Source: Olsenella sp. An293 (GTDB lineage: Bacteria > Actinomycetota > Coriobacteriia > Coriobacteriales > Atopobiaceae). From it: a stretch of DNA of 64,000 nucleotides. The stretch is taken from NCBI RefSeq assembly GCF_002159495.1, contig NZ_NFIT01000001.1, forward strand, positions 124,001 through 188,000. The letters are read 5' to 3'. Positions 1,661-61,754 of this stretch are shown piece after piece. The notes under the pieces were generated by a model that saw only the letters and a list, made by a program, of their open reading frames with translations, made no database searches and was not told the DNA's origin. Each line of letters starts with the position of its first letter. Positions within the stretch are counted from its first letter, which is position 1. A program made the position numbers and the translations under genes.

Positions 1661-3325
1661 ATGCTCGAGGTCTCCGGGATCCGCATACCCCTCTCCACGC
1701 TCGACGGCACCGACGCGCGAGAGCTCGCCGCATGCCGCAGGGCCGTCGCGCGCAAGCTGCGCGTGGGCGAGAAGGACCTCGGGTCCGTCGAGCGCAGGCG
1801 CCGCTCGATCGATGCCCGCAAGCGCGGGGACGTGCACCTCACGTTCACGCTGCGCGTCGAGCTCGCGGGCGGACCGGGCGCCGAGCAGGCCCTTCTCGCC
1901 CGCCTCGCCAAGAAGCGGGCAAACAAGAACGTGCGCGTCGTGGACGAGCGCCCCTTCGGCTTCCCGGAGCGCGTCGAGCGTCGCGACGCACCGCGCCCGG
2001 TCGTCGTTGGCGCCGGGTGCGCGGGCCTGTTCTGCGCGCTCTCGCTCGCACGCGCCGGCCTCGAGCCCCTGCTCGTGGAGCGCGGGGACAACGCCGCCCG
2101 CCGCGGCGAGGTCGTGAACAGGCACAACGAGACGGGCGCGCTCGACCCCGAGAGCAACATCCAGTTTGGCGTCGGCGGCGCGGGGACCTTCTCTGACGGC
2201 AAGCTCCAGACGGGCACCAAGAGCCCGGCCCATCGCCTCATCCTCGAGACCTTCGTCGCCGCAGGCGCGCAGCGCGAGATCCTCTGGGACGCCAAGCCCC
2301 ACGTGGGAAGCGACGTGCTGCCGCGCGTGGTGACCGACATCGTGCGGCAGATCGAGGAGGCGGGCGGCGAGGTCCGCTGTCGCTGCCGCATGACCGACCT
2401 CGACGTGAGCGACGGCGCGGTTCGCGGCGTGACCCTTGCGGCCACGCGCGACGACGGAGGCGTCTTCGAGGAGCGCGTGGCCGCGGACTGCGTGGTCCTG
2501 TGCTGCGGGCACTCCGCGCGCGACGTCTTCGAGCTCCTGCGCGAGCGCGGCGTGCCCATGGAGCGCAAGACCTTTGCGATGGGCGTGCGCATCGAGCACC
2601 TGCAGGCACAGATCGACCGCGCGCTCTACGGGGACGCGGCGGGCCACCCCACGCTCGGCGCCGCGCCCTACAGCCTCTCCTGCCACCTGCCCTCCGGGCG
2701 GAGCGCCTTCTCGTTTTGCATGTGCCCCGGCGGCTACGTGGTCTCCGCCGCGAGCGAGCCGGGCGGCGTCTGCACCAACGGCATGAGCCTCTCGGACCGC
2801 GCGGGCCAAAACGCCAACTCGGGGCTGCTCGCCAACGTCTTCCCCGAGGACCTGCCCGGCGACGACGTGCTCGCGGGCGTGGAGCTGCAGCGGAGCTGCG
2901 AGCGGGCGGCCTTCGCGGCGGGCGGCGGCGCGTACGTGGCGCCGGCCCAGCTCGTGGGAGACTTCCTCACCGGCGCGCCCTCGAGCGCCGGCGGGCGCGT
3001 GGCGCCCACCTACCCGCGCGGCGTGGCGTGGGGCGACGTGGCGCTCTGCCTGCCGGACTACGTGACGGAGACGCTGCGCGCGGCGATTCCCGTGCTCGGC
3101 CGCAAGCTCCGCGGCTTTGACGCTGCGGACGCGGTGCTCACGGGCGTGGAGACGCGCTCGAGCTCGCCGGTGCGCGTGACCCGCGGCGACGACGGGCAGA
3201 GCGTGGGTGTCCGCGGCCTCTGGCCCGTGGGCGAGGGCGCGGGCTACGCGGGCGGCATCATGAGCGCCGCCACCGACGGCATCCTCGCCGCCGAGAAGAT
3301 CGTGGCGGCATACGCGCGGCGGTAG
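1661..3325 (+). CDS. COG2509-like FAD-dependent dehydrogenase
   Basis: A 554-residue protein. A small N-terminal alpha/beta domain (residues about 1-105, rich in Arg/Lys) precedes an FAD-binding fold, RPVVVGAGCAGLFCALSLARAG. Then come the family segments VVNRHNETGALDPESNIQFG and GGAGTFSDGKLQTG, and a C-terminal GLWPVGEGAGYAGGIMSAATDG that closes the FAD site. This architecture matches uncharacterised FAD-dependent dehydrogenases of the COG2509 type; the substrate is not known. The ATG at 1661 follows an AAAGGA ribosome site. The stop codon abuts the left arm of a long hairpin at 3324-3404 that probably ends the transcript. Confidence 0.88.
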   Translation: MLEVSGIRIPLSTLDGTDARELAACRRAVARKLRVGEKDLGSVERRRRSIDARKRGDVHLTFTLRVELAGGPGAEQALLARLAKKRANKNVRVVDERPFGFPERVERRDAPRPVVVGAGCAGLFCALSLARAGLEPLLVERGDNAARRGEVVNRHNETGALDPESNIQFGVGGAGTFSDGKLQTGTKSPAHRLILETFVAAGAQREILWDAKPHVGSDVLPRVVTDIVRQIEEAGGEVRCRCRMTDLDVSDGAVRGVTLAATRDDGGVFEERVAADCVVLCCGHSARDVFELLRERGVPMERKTFAMGVRIEHLQAQIDRALYGDAAGHPTLGAAPYSLSCHLPSGRSAFSFCMCPGGYVVSAASEPGGVCTNGMSLSDRAGQNANSGLLANVFPEDLPGDDVLAGVELQRSCERAAFAAGGGAYVAPAQLVGDFLTGAPSSAGGRVAPTYPRGVAWGDVALCLPDYVTETLRAAIPVLGRKLRGFDAADAVLTGVETRSSSPVRVTRGDDGQSVGVRGLWPVGEGAGYAGGIMSAATDGILAAEKIVAAYARR

Positions 3326-3404
3326 GCCCGCTGGCCCGGGGGTTCTTCTCGCCGCTCACTGCTGCACAGAAATCGCGCGAGAAGAGCCCCGGGCCAGCGG
3401 GCCT
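3324..3404. repeat. Loop-conserved hairpin J, convergent intergenic
   Basis: Perfect 18-bp arms AGGCCCGCTGGCCCGGGG (3324-3341) and CCCCGGGCCAGCGGGCCT (3387-3404) are followed inward by a second pair, TTCTTCTCGC and GCGAGAAGA. The loop holds CGCTCA ... ACAGAAATCGCG, related to the CGCTCAGACAG ... GAACTCGCG loop of the hairpins at 11.2, 11.3 and 15.5 kb. It lies between two convergent genes and could act as a bidirectional terminator, although no T-run follows either arm. Confidence 0.8.
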
Positions 3405-9856: not shown

Positions 9857-10459
9857 CTACTCGGCGGAGGTGATTCCTTCCGGGTAGCTTCTCTGATAGC
9901 CCTCGTACGCCTCGCGCACGCGCTCGAGGTAGGCGCGCGTCTCGGCGTACTCGATCTGCTCGGGCAGTGACCCCCCGTCCGCGAGCCAACCCTGCACAGT
10001 GCCGATGCCGGCATTGTAGGCGGCGATCACCTCGTCGAGGCTCGAGAGGTGTGTCTGCAGGTAACCGAGGTAGGCGCAGCCGTACTCGATGTTCACGGTG
10101 GGGTCCACGAGCGCGGCGGGGTCGTATTGGTCCGCGCTCACCAGCCCGAGGCCGTTCAGACTCTCGGCGGTCGCCGGCATGACCTGCATGAGGCCCACGG
10201 CGCCCGCGTGCGAGACGGCGCCCTCGTCCCACCCCGACTCGCACTTGATCACCGCGCACACGAGGTCGGGGTCCACGCCGTGACGCGCGGCCGCGTCCTC
10301 GATCGCCTGCGCATGCTCCACCGGGTAGGCGAGCGTGCGCACCCACTCGAGCGGGACGGCCGCCAGCCCGGCGGAGAAGGCCAGCGTCAGGGCGAGAAGA
10401 ACGAGCGGTATGACGCGATACCAGCGGACAAGCCGCTCGGGCCGGCTATGCCTGGGCAC
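9857..10459 (-). CDS. Membrane-anchored lytic transglycosylase (SLT domain)
   Basis: A 200-residue protein with an N-terminal basic region and one hydrophobic segment (VIPLVLLALTLAFSAGLAAV, about residues 16-35). An SLT goose-lysozyme-like domain follows: VCAVIKCESGWDEGAVSHAGAVGLMQVMPATA, with the catalytic Glu in CESGWD, then YDPAALVDPTVNIEYGCAYL and the AYNAG motif. Such enzymes cleave peptidoglycan glycan strands to anhydromuropeptides at the outer face of the membrane. The segment could be an uncleaved signal anchor. Its start overlaps the end of coaE by 14 bp, so the two genes are translationally linked. Confidence 0.92.
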   Translation of the reverse strand: MPRHSRPERLVRWYRVIPLVLLALTLAFSAGLAAVPLEWVRTLAYPVEHAQAIEDAAARHGVDPDLVCAVIKCESGWDEGAVSHAGAVGLMQVMPATAESLNGLGLVSADQYDPAALVDPTVNIEYGCAYLGYLQTHLSSLDEVIAAYNAGIGTVQGWLADGGSLPEQIEYAETRAYLERVREAYEGYQRSYPEGITSAE

Positions 10460-11120
10460 CCGCGCGCCCCCTCTTGGGCACGTTGTCCCAGCCCTGCTGC
10501 TCGCGCGCGTGCCACCAGTCGCGAATCTCCCGGTCGAAGACGTCGGCGGTGTGGATGTTGTTGAAGACGAAGCTGCTGTGCGCCTTGATGTAGGCCTCGG
10601 TGGGCTGCTGGTGGAGCCTGCGATCGAAGTCGCGGGGGTCCATGCCGCGCTGTGCCGCGCGGGCGCGGCGGGCGGGCGCGGGGCACACGACGCCGATGAT
10701 CTCGTCTGCCATGTCGAACGAGCCGCGCATGCGGTCGAGCAGCGGGACCTCGACGACCACGATCTTCTCGGCAGCCTCCGGGTCCTTCTCCCGCTCCGCG
10801 CGCTCCTGCTCGGCGAGCTCGGCCACGCGGGCGCGCAGCAGCTCGTCGATCAGCGGCAGCTCGATCTCCTCGAGCGTGACCGTGCGCTCGGTGGTGGCGA
10901 AGGCGCGCTCCGCCAGCAGCTCGCGCTTCACGCCGCCCACGGGGTTGATGACGTCGTCGCCAAAGGCCGCCTTGATCTGCGGCAGGATCGGCGATCCCGG
11001 CGCCAACGCCTCGCGCGAGAGGTCGTCGAGGTCGATCCTCACGGCGCCGAGCTCCTCAAAGACGCGCGCGACGGTCGACTTGCCGGACGCGATCCCGCCC
11101 GCCAGATAGATAACATGCAT
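10446..11120 (-). CDS. coaE: Dephospho-CoA kinase
   Basis: A 224-residue kinase that phosphorylates the ribose 3'-OH of dephospho-CoA in the last step of coenzyme A synthesis. The N-terminus MHVIYLAGGIASGKSTVARV carries the P-loop (GGIASGKST), followed by VRIDLDDLSREAL. The family LIDELLR and VVVEVPLLDR segments and the late RRLHQQPTEAYIKAHSSFVFNN region are present. The C-terminal tail is Lys/Arg-rich. It precedes the transglycosylase gene with a 14-bp overlap. A pair of inverted hairpins lies upstream, separating it from the next operon. Confidence 0.95.
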   Translation of the reverse strand: MHVIYLAGGIASGKSTVARVFEELGAVRIDLDDLSREALAPGSPILPQIKAAFGDDVINPVGGVKRELLAERAFATTERTVTLEEIELPLIDELLRARVAELAEQERAEREKDPEAAEKIVVVEVPLLDRMRGSFDMADEIIGVVCPAPARRARAAQRGMDPRDFDRRLHQQPTEAYIKAHSSFVFNNIHTADVFDREIRDWWHAREQQGWDNVPKRGRAGAQA

Positions 11121-11171
11121 GAAGTCTCCTCCCTCTGATGCAGCTTCCTATCATCGCACATGCGGGGGCGG

Positions 11172-11245
11172 GGCGGGTCAACATACCTCATCTGCTCAAA
11201 CAGTTTGCTGCGCAAAAACTCGCATCTGAGGTATGTTGACCCGCC
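11172..11245. repeat. Loop-conserved hairpin C1
   Basis: Perfect 19-bp arms GGCGGGTCAACATACCTCA (11172-11190) and TGAGGTATGTTGACCCGCC (11227-11245). The loop contains GCTCAAACAGTTTGC, a short TTTGC/GCAAA stem and AACTCGC. The loop nearly matches that of C2, which lies in the opposite orientation 11 bp away, while the outermost arm bases differ. Confidence 0.9.
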
Positions 11246-11256
11246 TCGTCACAGTG

Positions 11257-11331
11257 GCGCGCCCGACATACCTTCATCCGCGAGTTCTTGCGAAGCAAGC
11301 TGTCTGAGCGGGGAAGGTATGTCGGGCGCGC
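11257..11331. repeat. Loop-conserved hairpin C2, inverted copy of C1
   Basis: Perfect 19-bp arms GCGCGCCCGACATACCTTC (11257-11275) and GAAGGTATGTCGGGCGCGC (11313-11331). Read on the minus strand, the loop is GCTCAGACAGCTTGCTTCGC then AAGAACTCGC, closely matching C1 (GCTCAAACAGTTTGCTGCGC then AAAAACTCGC). The right arm ends on the last base of the ABC ATPase stop codon, so it sits exactly at the 3' end of that gene. Confidence 0.9.
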
Positions 11332-11954
11332 TACGCGGGGAAGATGAGTCCGTCACGGACCGTCCAGGGGACGGGGTCGGGCAGGAGGTCCTTCTCGCGC
11401 TCGTCGTGGGTGACCCAGAAGACGGTCTTGCCAGAAAACAGCGGCACCACGCAGTCCATCACCCGCGCCACGGTCTTCTCGTCCATACCCTTGAGGGGCT
11501 CGTCGAAGAGCAGGGCGTCAGCGTCTGCGAGCGCGCAGCGCAGGATGGCCACGCGACGGCGCTGGCCGCCGGAGAGCTCGCGCACGGGACGGGCGTCCAC
11601 GGGAAGCCCCACCGCGGCGAGGGCGGCGCGCTCACGGGCGAGAAAGGCCTCTCGCTCCGCCCCGCGCAGACGGGCGTGCGGCAGACGGATGTTGGCCGTG
11701 GCGGTGAGGTTGTCGAGCAGGCGGTCCTCCTGGAAGGTCATGCCCAGGCGGACGCCGGCAGGGCGCACGACCTCGCCCGCGTCCGGACTCTCGAGGCCCG
11801 CCAGCAGGTGCAGCAGCGTGGTCTTGCCCGCACCGGAGGGCCCCATGAGAACGTGGGCGCGGCAGACCTCGAAGCGCGCCGTGGCGCCCGCGAGGACCGC
11901 AAGCGCGCCATAGCGCTTCTCGACCGCGCGCAGCTCGAAGACGGCGGCGCTCAT
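11331..11954 (-). CDS. ABC transporter ATP-binding protein (NitT/TauT type)
   Basis: A 207-residue ATPase with Walker A GPSGAGKTT, signature LSGGQRRRVAI, Walker B ALLFDEPLKG and the H-loop WVTHDERE. It powers import together with the permease and lipoprotein just upstream. It is shorter than most SsuB/TauB proteins (about 240-260) but keeps every catalytic motif. The ATG at 11954 overlaps the permease stop (ATGA), which fixes the start. The ligand of the transporter cannot be told from sequence; nitrate, sulfonate, taurine and thiamine-precursor systems share this layout. Confidence 0.9.
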   Translation of the reverse strand: MSAAVFELRAVEKRYGALAVLAGATARFEVCRAHVLMGPSGAGKTTLLHLLAGLESPDAGEVVRPAGVRLGMTFQEDRLLDNLTATANIRLPHARLRGAEREAFLARERAALAAVGLPVDARPVRELSGGQRRRVAILRCALADADALLFDEPLKGMDEKTVARVMDCVVPLFSGKTVFWVTHDEREKDLLPDPVPWTVRDGLIFPA

Positions 11955-15469: not shown

Positions 15470-15555
15470 GGGAGGCCGAGAAGGTCCGGCGCTCAGACAG
15501 TCCTCGCCGCGCGTTGCGCGGCTGCGGAACTCGCGGCGGACCTTCTCGGCCTCCC
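15470..15555. repeat. Loop-conserved hairpin D after rpsA
   Basis: Perfect 19-bp arms GGGAGGCCGAGAAGGTCCG (15470-15488) and CGGACCTTCTCGGCCTCCC (15537-15555). The loop begins CGCTCAGACAG and ends GAACTCGCGG, the same boundary sequences as the C1/C2 hairpins, but holds a longer middle part with a GCCGCGC/GCGCGGC stem. It is 66 bp past the rpsA stop codon and 22 bp upstream of the M42 start. Confidence 0.88.
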
Positions 15556-30655: not shown

Positions 30656-33600
30656 CTATGCCTCCCTCATCTTGTCGAACGCGTACGTCAGCGCCTCGCC
30701 GCGGTCGCGCCCGGCAGCCTCGGCCTGCGCCACGTAGGCCAGGACGCGCTCGTAGTCGCGCGGCGCCACCTTCACGAAGCGCGCGCTCGCGTCCGCCCAC
30801 TGGTAGAGCATCTTGATGCCGCGCGGGCTCTGGGTGCGTCGCACGTGCTCCTCCACGAGGGTGCGCACGGCGGCGAGCTCGTCTGCGGACGGGGCGAGAA
30901 GGTCCACGAGCTCCGTGTTGCAGCGCGTGGCGAGCGTCCCCAGGCGGTCGTAGACAAAGGCCAGCCCGCCCGACATGCCGGCCGCGAAGTTGGGGCCCAC
31001 CTCGCCGAGGACCACCACACGCCCGCCGGTCATGTACTCGCAGCCGTGCGCGCCCACGCCCTCCACGACCACCGTCGCGCCGGAGTTGCGCACGCAGAAG
31101 CGCTGGCCGGCGCGACCGTTCACAAAGCCGCGGCCGCCCGTGGCGCCGTAGAAGGCCACGTTGCCCACGATGACGTTCTCGTCGAACTTGTACGTCGCCT
31201 TCTCGGGGGGCCGCACCGAGAGCACGCCTCCCGAGAGCCCCTTGCCAAAGTAGTCGTTGGCGTCGCCGGAGACGTTGAGCGTGACGCCCGCGGGCAGAAA
31301 CGCCCCGAAGCTCTGGCCCGCCGAGCCCTCGCAGTCCACCGTGACCGAGCCCTCGGGCAGGCCCTCGGGGTGCGCCGCCGTCACGCGGCTTCCCAGCAGC
31401 GTGCCCACGCAGCGGTTGACGTTGTCGATGTCCGCGCGCAGGCGCACCGGCTCGAGGTGCTCGCGGGCCGAGGCGGTGTAGGGCACGAGCAGCGTGGCGT
31501 CGAGCGTGCGCCCGATCCTCAGGTCGGCGGCCATCTCGGGCAGGAAGCGCGGGCTCGCGGCGCCGGGGATGCCCTGCCCGAACTCGGGCCTCGCGCAGGC
31601 GAAGAGGTCGGAGAGGTCCAGGAGGTTGGCCTTCCAGTTCTTCTCGCCCTCCACGGGGACCTGGCGCAGGCAGTCCGCGCGCCCCACCATCTCGTCCACG
31701 GTGCGAAAGCCGAGCCCGGCCATGATCTCGCGCAGCTCCTCTGCCACGAACGTCATGTAGTTGACCACGTGCTCGGGCCTGCCCGAGAAGCGAGCGCGCA
31801 GGCGGCAGTCCTGGGTGGCGATGCCCGCCGGGCAGGTGTCGCGCTGACAGTCGCGCTGCATCAGGCAGCCGCAGGCGATGAGCGGCATCGTGGCGAAGCC
31901 AAACTCCTCGGCGCCCAGAAGCGCCGCCATGGCCACGTCGCGCCCGCTCATGAGCTTGCCGTCGGTCTCCAGGACCACGCGCGAGCGCAGGCCGTTTCGA
32001 AGCAGCGTCTGCTGGGTCTCGGCCAGGCCGATCTCGAAGGGGATGCCGGCGTGGTAGATGGAGTCGCGCGGGGCGGCCCCCGTCCCGCCGTTGTGCCCGG
32101 AGATCAAGATCTTGTCGGCCCCGCCCTTGGCGACGCCCGTGGCGATGGTGCCCACCCCGGCGAGCGCGCAGAGCTTCACCGAGACGCGCGCCTCGGGGTT
32201 GGCGTTCTTGAGGTCAAAGATGAGCTCCGCGAGGTCCTCGATCGAGTAAATGTCGTGGTGCGGCGGCGGCGAGATCAGCCCCACGCCCGGCGTGGACTGG
32301 CGCACCTCCGCGATCCAGGGGTAGACCTTGCGGCCGGGCAGGTGGCCGCCCTCGCCGGGCTTGGCCCCCTGCGCCATCTTGATCTGGATCTCGTCGGCCG
32401 AGACCAGGTAGCGGCTCGTGACGCCAAAGCGACCCGAGGCCACCTGCTTGATGGCCGAGCGGGCGGAGTCGCCGTTTGGGAGCGCCATCTCGCGCGCCGG
32501 GTCCTCGCCGCCCTCGCCGGTGTTGGAGCGCCCGTGCAGGCGGTTCATCGCGATGGCCAGGCACTCGTGCTGCTCGCGGGATATGGAGCCGTAGCTCATG
32601 GCCCCGGTGTTGAAGCGCCGCACGATCTGCTCGACGGGCTCGACCTCCTCGAGCGGCACGGGCTGCCCGGCGGGCGAGAAGTCCATGAGGTCGCGCAGGG
32701 TGACGGCGCGACCGGACCGGTGCACCCACGCGGAGAACTCCTTGAAGAGGTCGTAGTCCCCCTCGCGGCAGGCACGCTGCAACAGGTAGATGGCTTGGGG
32801 GTCGATGAGGTGCTCCTCGCCGTCGTGGGCGCGCCACTTGGTGAGGCCGAGCGTAGGGAGCTGCTCGGGCGCGGGGCTTGCCTCCAGGGCCGCCGCGGCG
32901 TCGTAGCGCGCGTCGAGCTCGCGCTGGAGGTCGGCGACCGTGAGGCCGCCCACGCGCGTGGCCGTAAACGTGAGGTACTTCTCGACCAGCTCCTCGGAGA
33001 GGCCCAGGGCCTCAAAGATCTGCGCGGAGTGGTAGCCCTGCATCGTGGAGATGCCCATCTTGGACATGATCGAGACGATGCCCGCCGTGACCGCGCGGTC
33101 GTAGTTGGCGAGCGCCTCCTTCGCGGGCAGGGCGAGCTCGCCGCGGGCGCAGAGGTCCCGGACGCAGTCGTGGGCCAGGTAGGGGTGGACCGCGGAGGCC
33201 GAGAAGGACACGAGGCACGCGAAGTCGTGCGCGCTGAGCGCGTCGCCGGTCTCCACCACGAGGTCGGCGCGGGTGCGCAGGCCGCAGCGGATGAGGTGGT
33301 TGTGCACGCACCCGAGCGCGAGCAGCGACGGCACGCTGACCTCGCCGTCTCTCGCGCGGTCCGAGACGATGAGGATGTTGGCGCCGGAGCGCACGCTCTT
33401 CTCGGCCTCCTCGGCAAGCTCGTCGAGAGCGCGCTCGAGGGCGCCGTCGCCGCCGGAGCGCGGGTAGGCGGCGCGGACGCGCGCGACCTTAAAGCCCACG
33501 AGGTCGATGGCGCACACGCGCTCGAAGTCCTCGTCCGAGAGGATGGGGCCGGGCAGGCGCACGAGACGGCAGACGTCGCGACAGTCCTCGAGGAGGTTGC

Positions 33601-35317
33601 CGTGGTTGCCGAGGTAGAGCGTGGTGCTCGTGACCATGCTCTCGCGCAGCGCGTCGATCGGCGGGTTGGTCACCTGGGCGAAGAGCTGGTTGAAGTAGTC
33701 GAAGAACGAGCGCGCCTTGGTCGAGAGGCACGCGAGGGGCGCGTCCACGCCCATCGAGGCCAGCGGCACCGAGGCCTTCTCGGCCATGGGGCGCACGACC
33801 TCGTCGACGTCGTCGTAGTGCCAGCCGAGACGGGCCATGCGCTGCGTGAGGGGGAGCTCGTCACCGGAGCGCCCGGCCTCGCCAAGGTCCGCCGCGAGTT
33901 CTGCAGCCGAGTTGACAACAGCGTCAGGATCTATTGTCAACCGCGCCGGCGCGGGCAGATCGGCGAGGTCAACGGTCTCCTGGTCGAGCCAGGAGCGGTA
34001 GGGCTTCTCGGCGGCCAGGCGGTCGCGGATCTCGTCGTTGCCGATCACGCGACCCTGGACGGGGTCGACCTCGAGCATCTCGCCCGGGCCGAGGCATCCC
34101 GTGGAGAGGACGTTTACGGGGTCGATGTCGATCGTGCCCACCTCGGAGGCAAGGATCAGGCGATCGTCGCGCGTCACGTAGTAGCGCGCCGGGCGCAGGC
34201 CGTTGCGGTCGAGCGCGGCGCCCACCGTGCGCCCGTCGGTGAAGACGATCGCCGCTGGCCCGTCCCAGGGTTCCATGAGCATGGACTGGTAGGCGTCGTA
34301 GGCGCGACGGCGGTCGGAGAGCGCGGGGTTGTTGTCCCAGGGCTCCGGCATCATGAGCGTCACGGCGCGGTCGAGCGCGCGCCCGTTCATGACGAGAAAC
34401 TCCAGAACGTTGTCGAGGATCGCGGAGTCCGATCCCTCGCGGTTGATGATGGGCAGCACGCGCTCGAGGTCGGCGCCCAGCACCGGCGAGTAGAGCTCGG
34501 GCTCGCGAGCGCGGACCCAGCTCACGTTGCCGCGCAAGGTGTTGATCTCGCCGTTGTGGATGAGGTAGCGGTTGGGGTGGGCGCGCTCCCAGGAGGGCGT
34601 GGTGTTGGTGGAGTAGCGCGAGTGCACGAGGGCGAGCGCCGTCTCGACCGCGGCGTCGCCCAGGTCCAGGTAGAAGCGGCGCATCTGGGTGGCCACGAGC
34701 ATGCCCTTGTAGACGATCGTGCGGCTGGACATGCTGCACACGTAGAAGATCTTGCCGGCGAGCGCGGGGCTTGCGTCGGCGGCGCGCTCGATGGCGCGGC
34801 GGGTCACGTAGAGGCGCCGCTCGAAGTCCTGACCGCGGGGGACGTCCTCGGGGCGGCGAAGGAACGCCTGGTAGATCGTGGGCATGCAGGCGCGCGCCGT
34901 GGAGCCCAGGTCGTGCGGGTCCACCGGCACCGCGCGCCAGAACATGAGCGGCACGCCGCACTCGGCGCACCCGCGCTCAAAGACCTGACGCGCCGCGGCC
35001 ACGCCCTCCGGGTCGTCGTGCGGGAGGAAGAGCATGGCCACGCCGTAGTCCCCCTCGTCGGGCAGGAGCTGGCCCTCCTTCTGCGCCTCCTTGCGGAAGA
35101 AGCGGTGCGGAACCTGAAAGAGCACGCCCGCGCCGTCGCCGGTGTTGCGCTCCAGGCCCGTGCCGCCGCGGTGCTCGAGGTTCACGAGAACCGAGAGCGC
35201 GTCGTCGAGCGTCTGGTGGCTGCGGACGCCGCGCAGGTGCGCGATCGCGCCGATGCCGCAGGCGTCGTGCTCGTACTCCGGGCGATAGAGGCCGGGCTCG
35301 TGGTTCTTCTCGCTCAT
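30656..35317 (-). CDS. gltB: Glutamate synthase large (alpha) subunit
   Basis: A 1553-residue GOGAT large subunit, which makes two glutamates from glutamine and 2-oxoglutarate. The N-terminal glutamine amidotransferase begins after a propeptide at the catalytic Cys of [14 protein letters not shown] (Cys20). The FMN barrel contains [19 protein letters not shown] and [16 protein letters not shown], and the 3Fe-4S Cys lie in [20 protein letters not shown]. The C-terminal beta-helix includes [25 protein letters not shown]. A 31-bp palindrome lies in frame at residues 459-469, in the linker after the amidotransferase domain. It is the first gene of gltB-gltD. Confidence 0.96.
   Translation of the reverse strand: [1553 protein letters not shown]
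33911..33941. repeat. 31-bp palindrome inside gltB
   Basis: Arms GTTGACAA (33911-33918) and TTGTCAAC (33934-33941) surround a 15-base centre containing CGTCAGG. A second copy lies at 62718-62748 with the same TTGACAA/TTGTCAA arms and the same CGTCAGG; 24 of 29 bases match between the arms' outer limits. On the minus strand both are read in the same frame, [10 protein letters not shown] here and LTI-stop at the other site. Confidence 0.85.
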
Positions 35318-46874: not shown

Positions 46875-46978
46875 GCGTCTGTCAATTGGGGACGTGTCAA
46901 TTGGGGACGTGTTATTTCGTGCACATAACCTGTCCCAAATCGTCTGCACGAAATAACACGTCCCCAATTGACAGACGC
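46875..46978. repeat. Long palindrome H with an internal 15-bp duplication
   Basis: A 29-bp perfect arm (46895-46923, beginning TGTCAATTGGGGACG and ending TTATTTCGTGCA) pairs with 46945-46973. TGTCAATTGGGGACG is duplicated in tandem on the left only (46880-46894 and 46895-46909). The outer GCGTC/GACGC (46875, 46978) also pair using the first copy, so two alternative registers exist. The loop is about 21 bases. Confidence 0.9.
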
Positions 46979-61702: not shown

Positions 61703-61754
61703 CACGTTGGGGACAGTCCCCAACGTGCTGCTAATTGGGGACTGTCCCCAACGT
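61703..61754. repeat. Pair of GGGGAC palindromes G after the AraC gene
   Basis: CACGTTGGGGAC-a-GTCCCCAACGTG (61703-61727) is a perfect 25-bp palindrome. Five bases on, AATTGGGGACTGTCCCCAAC (61732-61751) followed by GTT is a second, inverted partial copy. The AATTGGGGAC core also occurs in palindrome H at 46.9 kb. It lies between the AraC gene and the co-directional phosphatase gene. Confidence 0.85.

Follow-up and report, generated by a model that had tools for sequence, protein, structure and literature searches.

A repeat family of palindromes in Coriobacteriia with a conserved tip and private, co-evolving arms

Two hairpins beside coaE and the build of their family

The window analysed here is a stretch of 64,000 nucleotides from Olsenella sp. 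An293 (contig NZ_NFIT01000001.1, positions 124,001 to 188,000). It carries two adjacent hairpins, C1 and C2, which are flanked by the gene of an ABC transporter ATPase and by coaE (identified by Pfam), and the stop codon of the ATPase gene is the start of the outer arm of C2 (Table 1). The arms paired at 19/19 positions in both hairpins, around loops of 36 nt (C1) and 37 nt (C2), and the fold of positions 11150-11350 had a z score of -10.9, with 0 of 200 shuffles equally stable, thereby confirming the perfect 19-bp arms described in an earlier note on this DNA. The same note had seen nearly the same loop on opposite strands, and indeed the loop reads GCTCAAACAGTTTGCTGCGCAAAAACTCGC on the plus strand in C1 and GCTCAGACAGCTTGCTTCGCAAGAACTCGC on the minus strand in C2. 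The arms had further been called unrelated. This holds for the outer 8-10 bp, which are private to each hairpin, but not for the inner part, where the word ACATACC is common to C1 and C2.

Table 1. Positions of the hairpins, genes and other palindromes in the window
Feature	Position	Strand	Remarks
coaE	10446-11120	-	
Hairpin C1, type A member of the coaE pair	11172-11245	+	19-bp perfect arms, tip GCTCAAACAG..AACTCGC
Conserved tip of C1	11194-11223	+	
Hairpin C2, type B member of the coaE pair	11257-11331	-	19-bp perfect arms, tip GCTCAGACAG..GAACTCGC
Conserved tip of C2	11280-11309	-	
ABC transporter ATPase gene	11331-11954	-	
Third full member	15470-15555	+	19-bp arms, T-type tip GCTCAGACAGTCCTCG..CTGCGGAACTCGC, E 1.7e-16 with a model whose training set included it
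Distant possible member	3328-3400	+	hairpin 3324-3404, loop GCTCACTGCTGCACAG.., E 0.0023
gltB	30656-35317		glutamate synthase large subunit
Half family hairpin inside gltB, in frame	33875-33906	-	complete in G016, G021 and other species
Unrelated short hairpin replacing the other half of the gltB element	33911-33941	.	GTTGACAA..TTGTCAAC
Long palindrome	46875-46978		TGTCAATTGGGGACGTGTTATTTCGTGCA, 29-bp arms
Long palindrome	61704-61754		GTTGGGGACAGTCCCCAAC

From the outside inwards, a member of the family consists of a private arm, a partly conserved proximal arm (often CGAGAAGGTCCG/CGGACCTTCTCG), GCTCARACAG, an apical stem and GAACTCGC. The elements are about 85-105 nt long, with arms of 17-31 bp. 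Among the 16 well-formed copies of this genome (G000), identity between copies was 0.96 in the tip, 0.54 in the proximal arm and 0.426 in the outer arm, the last value being equal to the 0.426 predicted by composition. Of the arm pairs, 96% were Watson-Crick; covariation was found in 19 of the 21 consensus pairs, and the apical stem of the tip covaries as well. Conserved terminal inverted repeats of the MITE type were not found, the outermost arms being private to each copy. At pair 5, counted from the base of the outer helix, about one quarter of the copies have a C.A or A.C mismatch, far more than at other positions; this pair is a possible recognition feature. The word CGCTCARACAG may resemble phage boxA. 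Two tip types occur in the genus, S (CTTGCC..GGCAAG) and T (TCCTCG..CTGCGGA or CTTCG..CTGCAG). Close pairs were head to head in 34 of 34 cases, 26 of them combining a T with a non-T tip and 8, the coaE type included, two non-T tips; there was no T-T pair.

Occurrence and genomic position

The pattern GCTCANACAG-N(4,34)-AACTCGC occurs 18 times in the genome and its reversed control 0 times. A covariance model built from family copies gave 38 matches at E<=0.1, in about 34 distinct places of the 2.3-Mb genome. Thus the search that the earlier note had proposed recovered dozens of further copies, with conserved tips and variable arms. Three kin hairpins had been named beforehand: that at 15.5 kb is a full member, that at 3.3 kb at most a distant member, and that at 53.8 kb was ruled out by the covariance-model search. 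Positive genomes numbered 30 of 31 in the genus scan, 58 of 140 in the family scan and 80 of 398 in the class scan, the last representing 28 of 153 sampled genera. The compared DNA comprised stretches round the matches and one syntenic region, with genes called by an in-house script. Named relatives belong to Olsenella and Thermophilibacter (Atopobiaceae), and across the class this multi-copy family is patchily present. Other families of the class carry the same tip, mostly TCCTCG..CTGCGGA, on other arms, which in some genomes are again unrelated between copies; G369 and G103 have several copies with still-similar arms, as would fit younger copies of a mobile repeat. The description of a conserved loop on a custom but perfect stem is therefore borne out in the genome, the genus and the class. 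A possible copy inside a gene of another genus (L292) could not be confirmed.

No Rfam family reached the gathering threshold within the window, and at the five element loci compared with Rfam the matches were weak, of a generic hairpin kind and far below it, apart from a tRNA elsewhere in L005. No paper describing such a repeat family of Coriobacteriia was found in the open-licence literature. C1 and C2 thus belong to a widespread repeat family that is apparently undescribed in this class.

Relative to genes, the 158 distinct elements comprised 64 that were co-directional and sense, 49 co-directional and antisense, 21 convergent, 1 divergent, 5 within a gene and 18 unclassified. Between a stop codon and the beginning of a sense helix there are mostly 5-12 nt, and stop-adjacent copies are strongly sense-oriented. 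An antisense copy is in most cases the second of a pair, and its helix usually ends 18-50 nt ahead of the following start codon. Other families of the class have single copies, and the majority of these are in the sense orientation relative to the gene upstream. No T-run was present downstream of the 158 elements, and a scan of 10-13 kb showed no intrinsic terminator (GC-rich hairpin with U-tract).

The clearest sign of mobility is a site within a protein-coding gene, gltB, between the Pfam domains GATase_2 (residues 20-443) and Glu_syn_central (residues 493-774). The hairpin is in frame in 11 species, in 8 of them with the loop on the coding strand (one tip being decayed) and in 3 with the loop on the other strand; it is absent in 12 species and replaced by other hairpins in 3. 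In G000 half of the hairpin is kept and the remainder has been overwritten by another hairpin. Since the hairpin is translated through in 11 species, it cannot be only a terminator. G016 and G021 differ in two compensated pairs, by which, on either side of the hairpin, Ala is exchanged for Val and Gly for Asp, and in G025 the arms still pair although the tip has decayed.

Turnover at orthologous sites and paired changes in the arms

The ABC/coaE site holds a pair, in either orientation, in some species; in others there is one hairpin alone, there are different hairpins, or the two genes are separated by only 23-34 nt. At the 15.5-kb site, four species with 90-93% identical proteins differ: G000 has the element in one orientation, G021 in the opposite one, and G016 and G017 have two unrelated hairpins. 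Between G000 and G021 the loop is inverted with the arms kept. Whole pairs also flip, both at the coaE site and between L077 and L347. Tip types differ over unchanged arms in L121 as compared to L122 and L126, and between L348 (G017) and L074 (G000) the S and T tips are exchanged within the pair while both sets of arms are unchanged, for which no simple single event accounts. No recent transposition was observed directly in the genus, and the empty orthologous sites may be due to loss; the filled and empty coaE and gltB sites are too diverged to show a target-site duplication or its lack. The idea that the outer arms are native flank and the inner arms copies of it, hinted at by the presence of GCGCGCCC also in empty coaE sites, was not adopted, because whole units invert along with their arms.

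Several other structures were observed in these gaps. Upstream of coaE in G024, G030 and G013, at the site occupied elsewhere by C1/C2-like pairs, there are arrays of GACAAGGGCGGC and TTCTAAGAA-like units (L220, L221 and L227), which fold as very long hairpins (up to -268 kcal/mol, in the G013 region). The same intergenic slot in G029 (L217) contains a near-perfect palindrome with 28-bp arms, GACAAGGGTGACAGGGTCGTTTGTCATG. Just before coaE, most species have a near-invariant ATGTGCGATGATAG / ATGTGAGATGATAG block, possibly the coaE promoter, which is the right edge of the insertions there. In the regions syntenic with the window in G017 (contig C12, L234-L237) and G016 (contig C8, L230-L233), orthologous gaps often hold different, unrelated long hairpins; the sites on contig C1 of G000 with differing hairpins in these two species include 118125, 121542, 127326 and 138294. 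The proteins of these species are 90-93% identical. Turnover of hairpins is thus general in these genomes.

Comparison of orthologous arms revealed 197 double compensated, 120 single and 10 other double changes in 102 comparisons, which are non-independent as they share lineages. Among the four closest species, flank identity was mostly 88-96% (4-12% divergence). After exclusion of 2 doubtful comparisons, which held another 9 doubles, both bases had changed and still paired in 30 of 402 pairs, and one base had changed in 8. Chance placement of the same number of changes gave 5.8 expected coincidences and a maximum of 14 in 20000 trials. The double changes were also clustered, 12 being adjacent against 4.3 expected (p = 0.0002). 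The arms changed at about the rate of the flanks, with few intermediates.

Template switching between the arms of inverted repeats is reported to homogenise these arms, to invert spacers and to leave clustered, often nonsynonymous changes, also in coding DNA (PMC8604942), and to yield multibase compensatory changes in stems (PMC8794818). It is a mechanism of mutation and not a repeat family, and here would act on a whole multi-copy family. Both of its marks, clustered paired changes in the arms and an inverted spacer between kept arms (at 15.5 kb), are present. Thus, with arm matching, loop inversion and clustered changes seen together, copying between arms is the most likely cause of the custom but perfect stems. 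The earlier note had suggested, as one of two explanations, that one arm is made by copying its partner; this is well supported by the 30 doubles against 8 singles and their clustering, by pairing in gltB despite amino-acid changes, by the loop inversions and by the lack of a wobble bias (see below).

A proposed mobile palindrome and its alternatives

We propose, with a probability of roughly 60%, that C1 and C2 are head-to-head members of a non-autonomous family of mobile palindromes whose identity lies in the tip and whose arms are matched by copying at the DNA level. The tip, that is GCTCARACAG, the covarying apical stem and GAACTCGC, would define the element in place of its ends, and would presumably be read in the folded strand by a mobilising enzyme or other factor. 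The arms would need complementarity only, so that their sequence could drift, and would be re-matched repeatedly by template switching between them during replication, which might also flip the loop in place. This reading is supported by filled, empty and replaced orthologous sites, by the in-frame copies in gltB and by private arms with conserved tips. The tip is either under strong constraint or repeatedly re-supplied, and its conservation throughout the class suggests a factor that recognises the loop; as both orientations occur, such a factor probably acts on folded DNA. Several points weigh against the proposal. The sense orientation of stop-adjacent copies is not predicted for a purely neutral DNA element, and the tip swaps under constant arms are not simply explained. 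No enzyme moving the palindromes was found, the RAYT genes being unlinked to them, and the numbers of the wobble test (see below) are modest.

A mobile palindrome could also owe its paired arms to selection for folding alone, one mutation at a time and with no copying between arms. Compensated changes are expected from such selection too, and single changes do occur (120 against 197 doubles in all orthologous comparisons). However, at 4-12% flank divergence doubles already outnumber singles, and in clusters, the arms change about as fast as their flanks with few intermediate states, and the arms in gltB of G025 stayed paired after the tip had decayed; we therefore consider this explanation unlikely.

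If the family were instead a host RNA element of 3' ends, acting as a terminator or mRNA stabiliser and with an RNA-binding protein reading its tip, ordinary compensatory selection would pair the arms. The start of sense helices shortly past stop codons, with a single divergent element, the sense orientation of single copies in other families of the class, the very stable stems and the covariation at nearly all consensus pairs are in its favour. Against it, gltB holds in-frame copies in both orientations, T-runs are missing, antisense copies make up about one third of those classified, and close species have the slot empty or filled with unrelated hairpins. Moreover, G.U pairs are not preferred. 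Overall, A.C mismatches outnumbered G.T ones (65 vs 28), but this difference was due to pair 5 alone and vanished without it; outside pair 5, G.T and A.C mismatches numbered 25 vs 21 on the transcript strand and 26 vs 25 on the loop strand, so that the G.U tolerance which marks selection at the RNA level was not visible in these modest numbers. Termination as the sole function is ruled out by the gltB copies, the missing U-tracts and the antisense partners. The RNA element as a whole appears rather improbable, and it is the strong sense orientation of stop-adjacent copies for which a 3'-end role is kept in consideration. The earlier note had offered, as its other explanation, selection for RNA or DNA structure with a loop-recognising factor. 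The gltB copies and the wobble test weaken the RNA part of it, and the conserved tip suggests the factor.

It is very unlikely that the tip is a tiny insertion which landed in the loops of pre-existing terminator hairpins, with arms that differ as terminators differ. Private arms, the position past stop codons and the change of tip type over unchanged arms (L121 vs L122/L126; L348 vs L074) would agree with it, but the proximal arm shares to some extent in the conservation of the tip (54% identity), the orthologous sites examined showed no hairpin that had the same arms and lacked the tip, and gltB offers no terminator to land in. Least probable of all is a REP/REPIN family with a RAYT (Y1) transposase as its mover: RAYT genes do occur in 28 of 31 genomes and the palindromes do lie near stop codons and in inverted pairs, but the element was found at 0 of 30 RAYT loci, the RAYTs with visible flanking hairpins have other ones (several of the GGGGACAG type), copy numbers were uncorrelated (rho 0.06, p 0.74), G013 has 9 element copies and no RAYT, of 139 elements only 14 had GTAG and 18 had CGTC at a distance of up to 12 nt from the 5' foot, and the stem is not conserved between copies, outer-arm identity being that of composition.

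The mobile palindrome with arm copying, extended further, would make a new class of mobile DNA in Coriobacteriia, with the folded tip as its sole sequence signature, in which an enzyme reads this tip, template switching continually rewrites the arms, and the S and T tips mark the left and the right end of a composite unit able to invert and to exchange its tips in place. This extension is tentative and somewhat doubtful. It is usual to regard compensatory changes in a stem as proof that an RNA is functional, and the family offers a natural multi-copy test of how far covariation arises from DNA template switching alone, since its strong stem covariation is found both in and between genes, without wobble preference and at an amino-acid cost. 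With it, a class that is frequent in animal guts gains a widespread and apparently undescribed repeat family, and glutamate synthase becomes an example of an enzyme within which a palindrome is translated.

In its mode of working the family resembles Rickettsia palindromic elements and REPs, and in the evolution of its arms the coding palindromes of nematomorphs. Among these known systems, the Rickettsia palindromic elements (RPE; Ogata et al. 2000, 2002) are described in the review PMC10969869 as small genome-repeated palindromes, both intergenic and in frame in protein genes, non-autonomous and with an unknown mover, and a statement in PMC6649704 has them losing arm identity over time. The Coriobacteriia palindromes are likewise both intergenic (most of the 158) and in frame in a gene (gltB, 11 species). 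They differ in being about 85-105 nt long, in belonging to a high-GC actinobacterial class, in conserving only the tip and in the co-evolution of their arms; homology to the described RPE families is unlikely, as these belong to a different phylum. Coding palindromes of nematomorph mitochondria are near-perfect inverted repeats in genes, with concerted arms and nonsynonymous paired changes for which copying has been proposed (PMC6649704). These have no conserved repeat sequence, whereas the Coriobacteriia copies are all linked by the conserved tip.

The attC sites of integrons are recognised by structure as folded single strands and vary in stem sequence, with terminal core sites kept and variation towards the tip. 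This is the reverse of the present family, in which the tip is kept and the ends vary. REP, BIME and REPIN sequences with RAYT are extragenic palindromes near stop codons and in inverted pairs, and their recognition is believed to take place in the folded, single-stranded state (PMC3116915, PMC8266576). The Coriobacteriia palindromes share this position and pairing, but have neither a foot tag nor RAYT linkage, combine a conserved tip with private arms, and occur also inside a gene. Since the tag and linkage tests failed, the family cannot be filed under REP. RAYT genes at L252, L258, L259, L261 and L273 adjoin hairpins of the GGGGACAG, GGGGACGG or TGACAGAGGGGAC type and are likely to form REP systems of their own with them, and the two other long palindromes of the window (Table 1) are likely REP-type elements.
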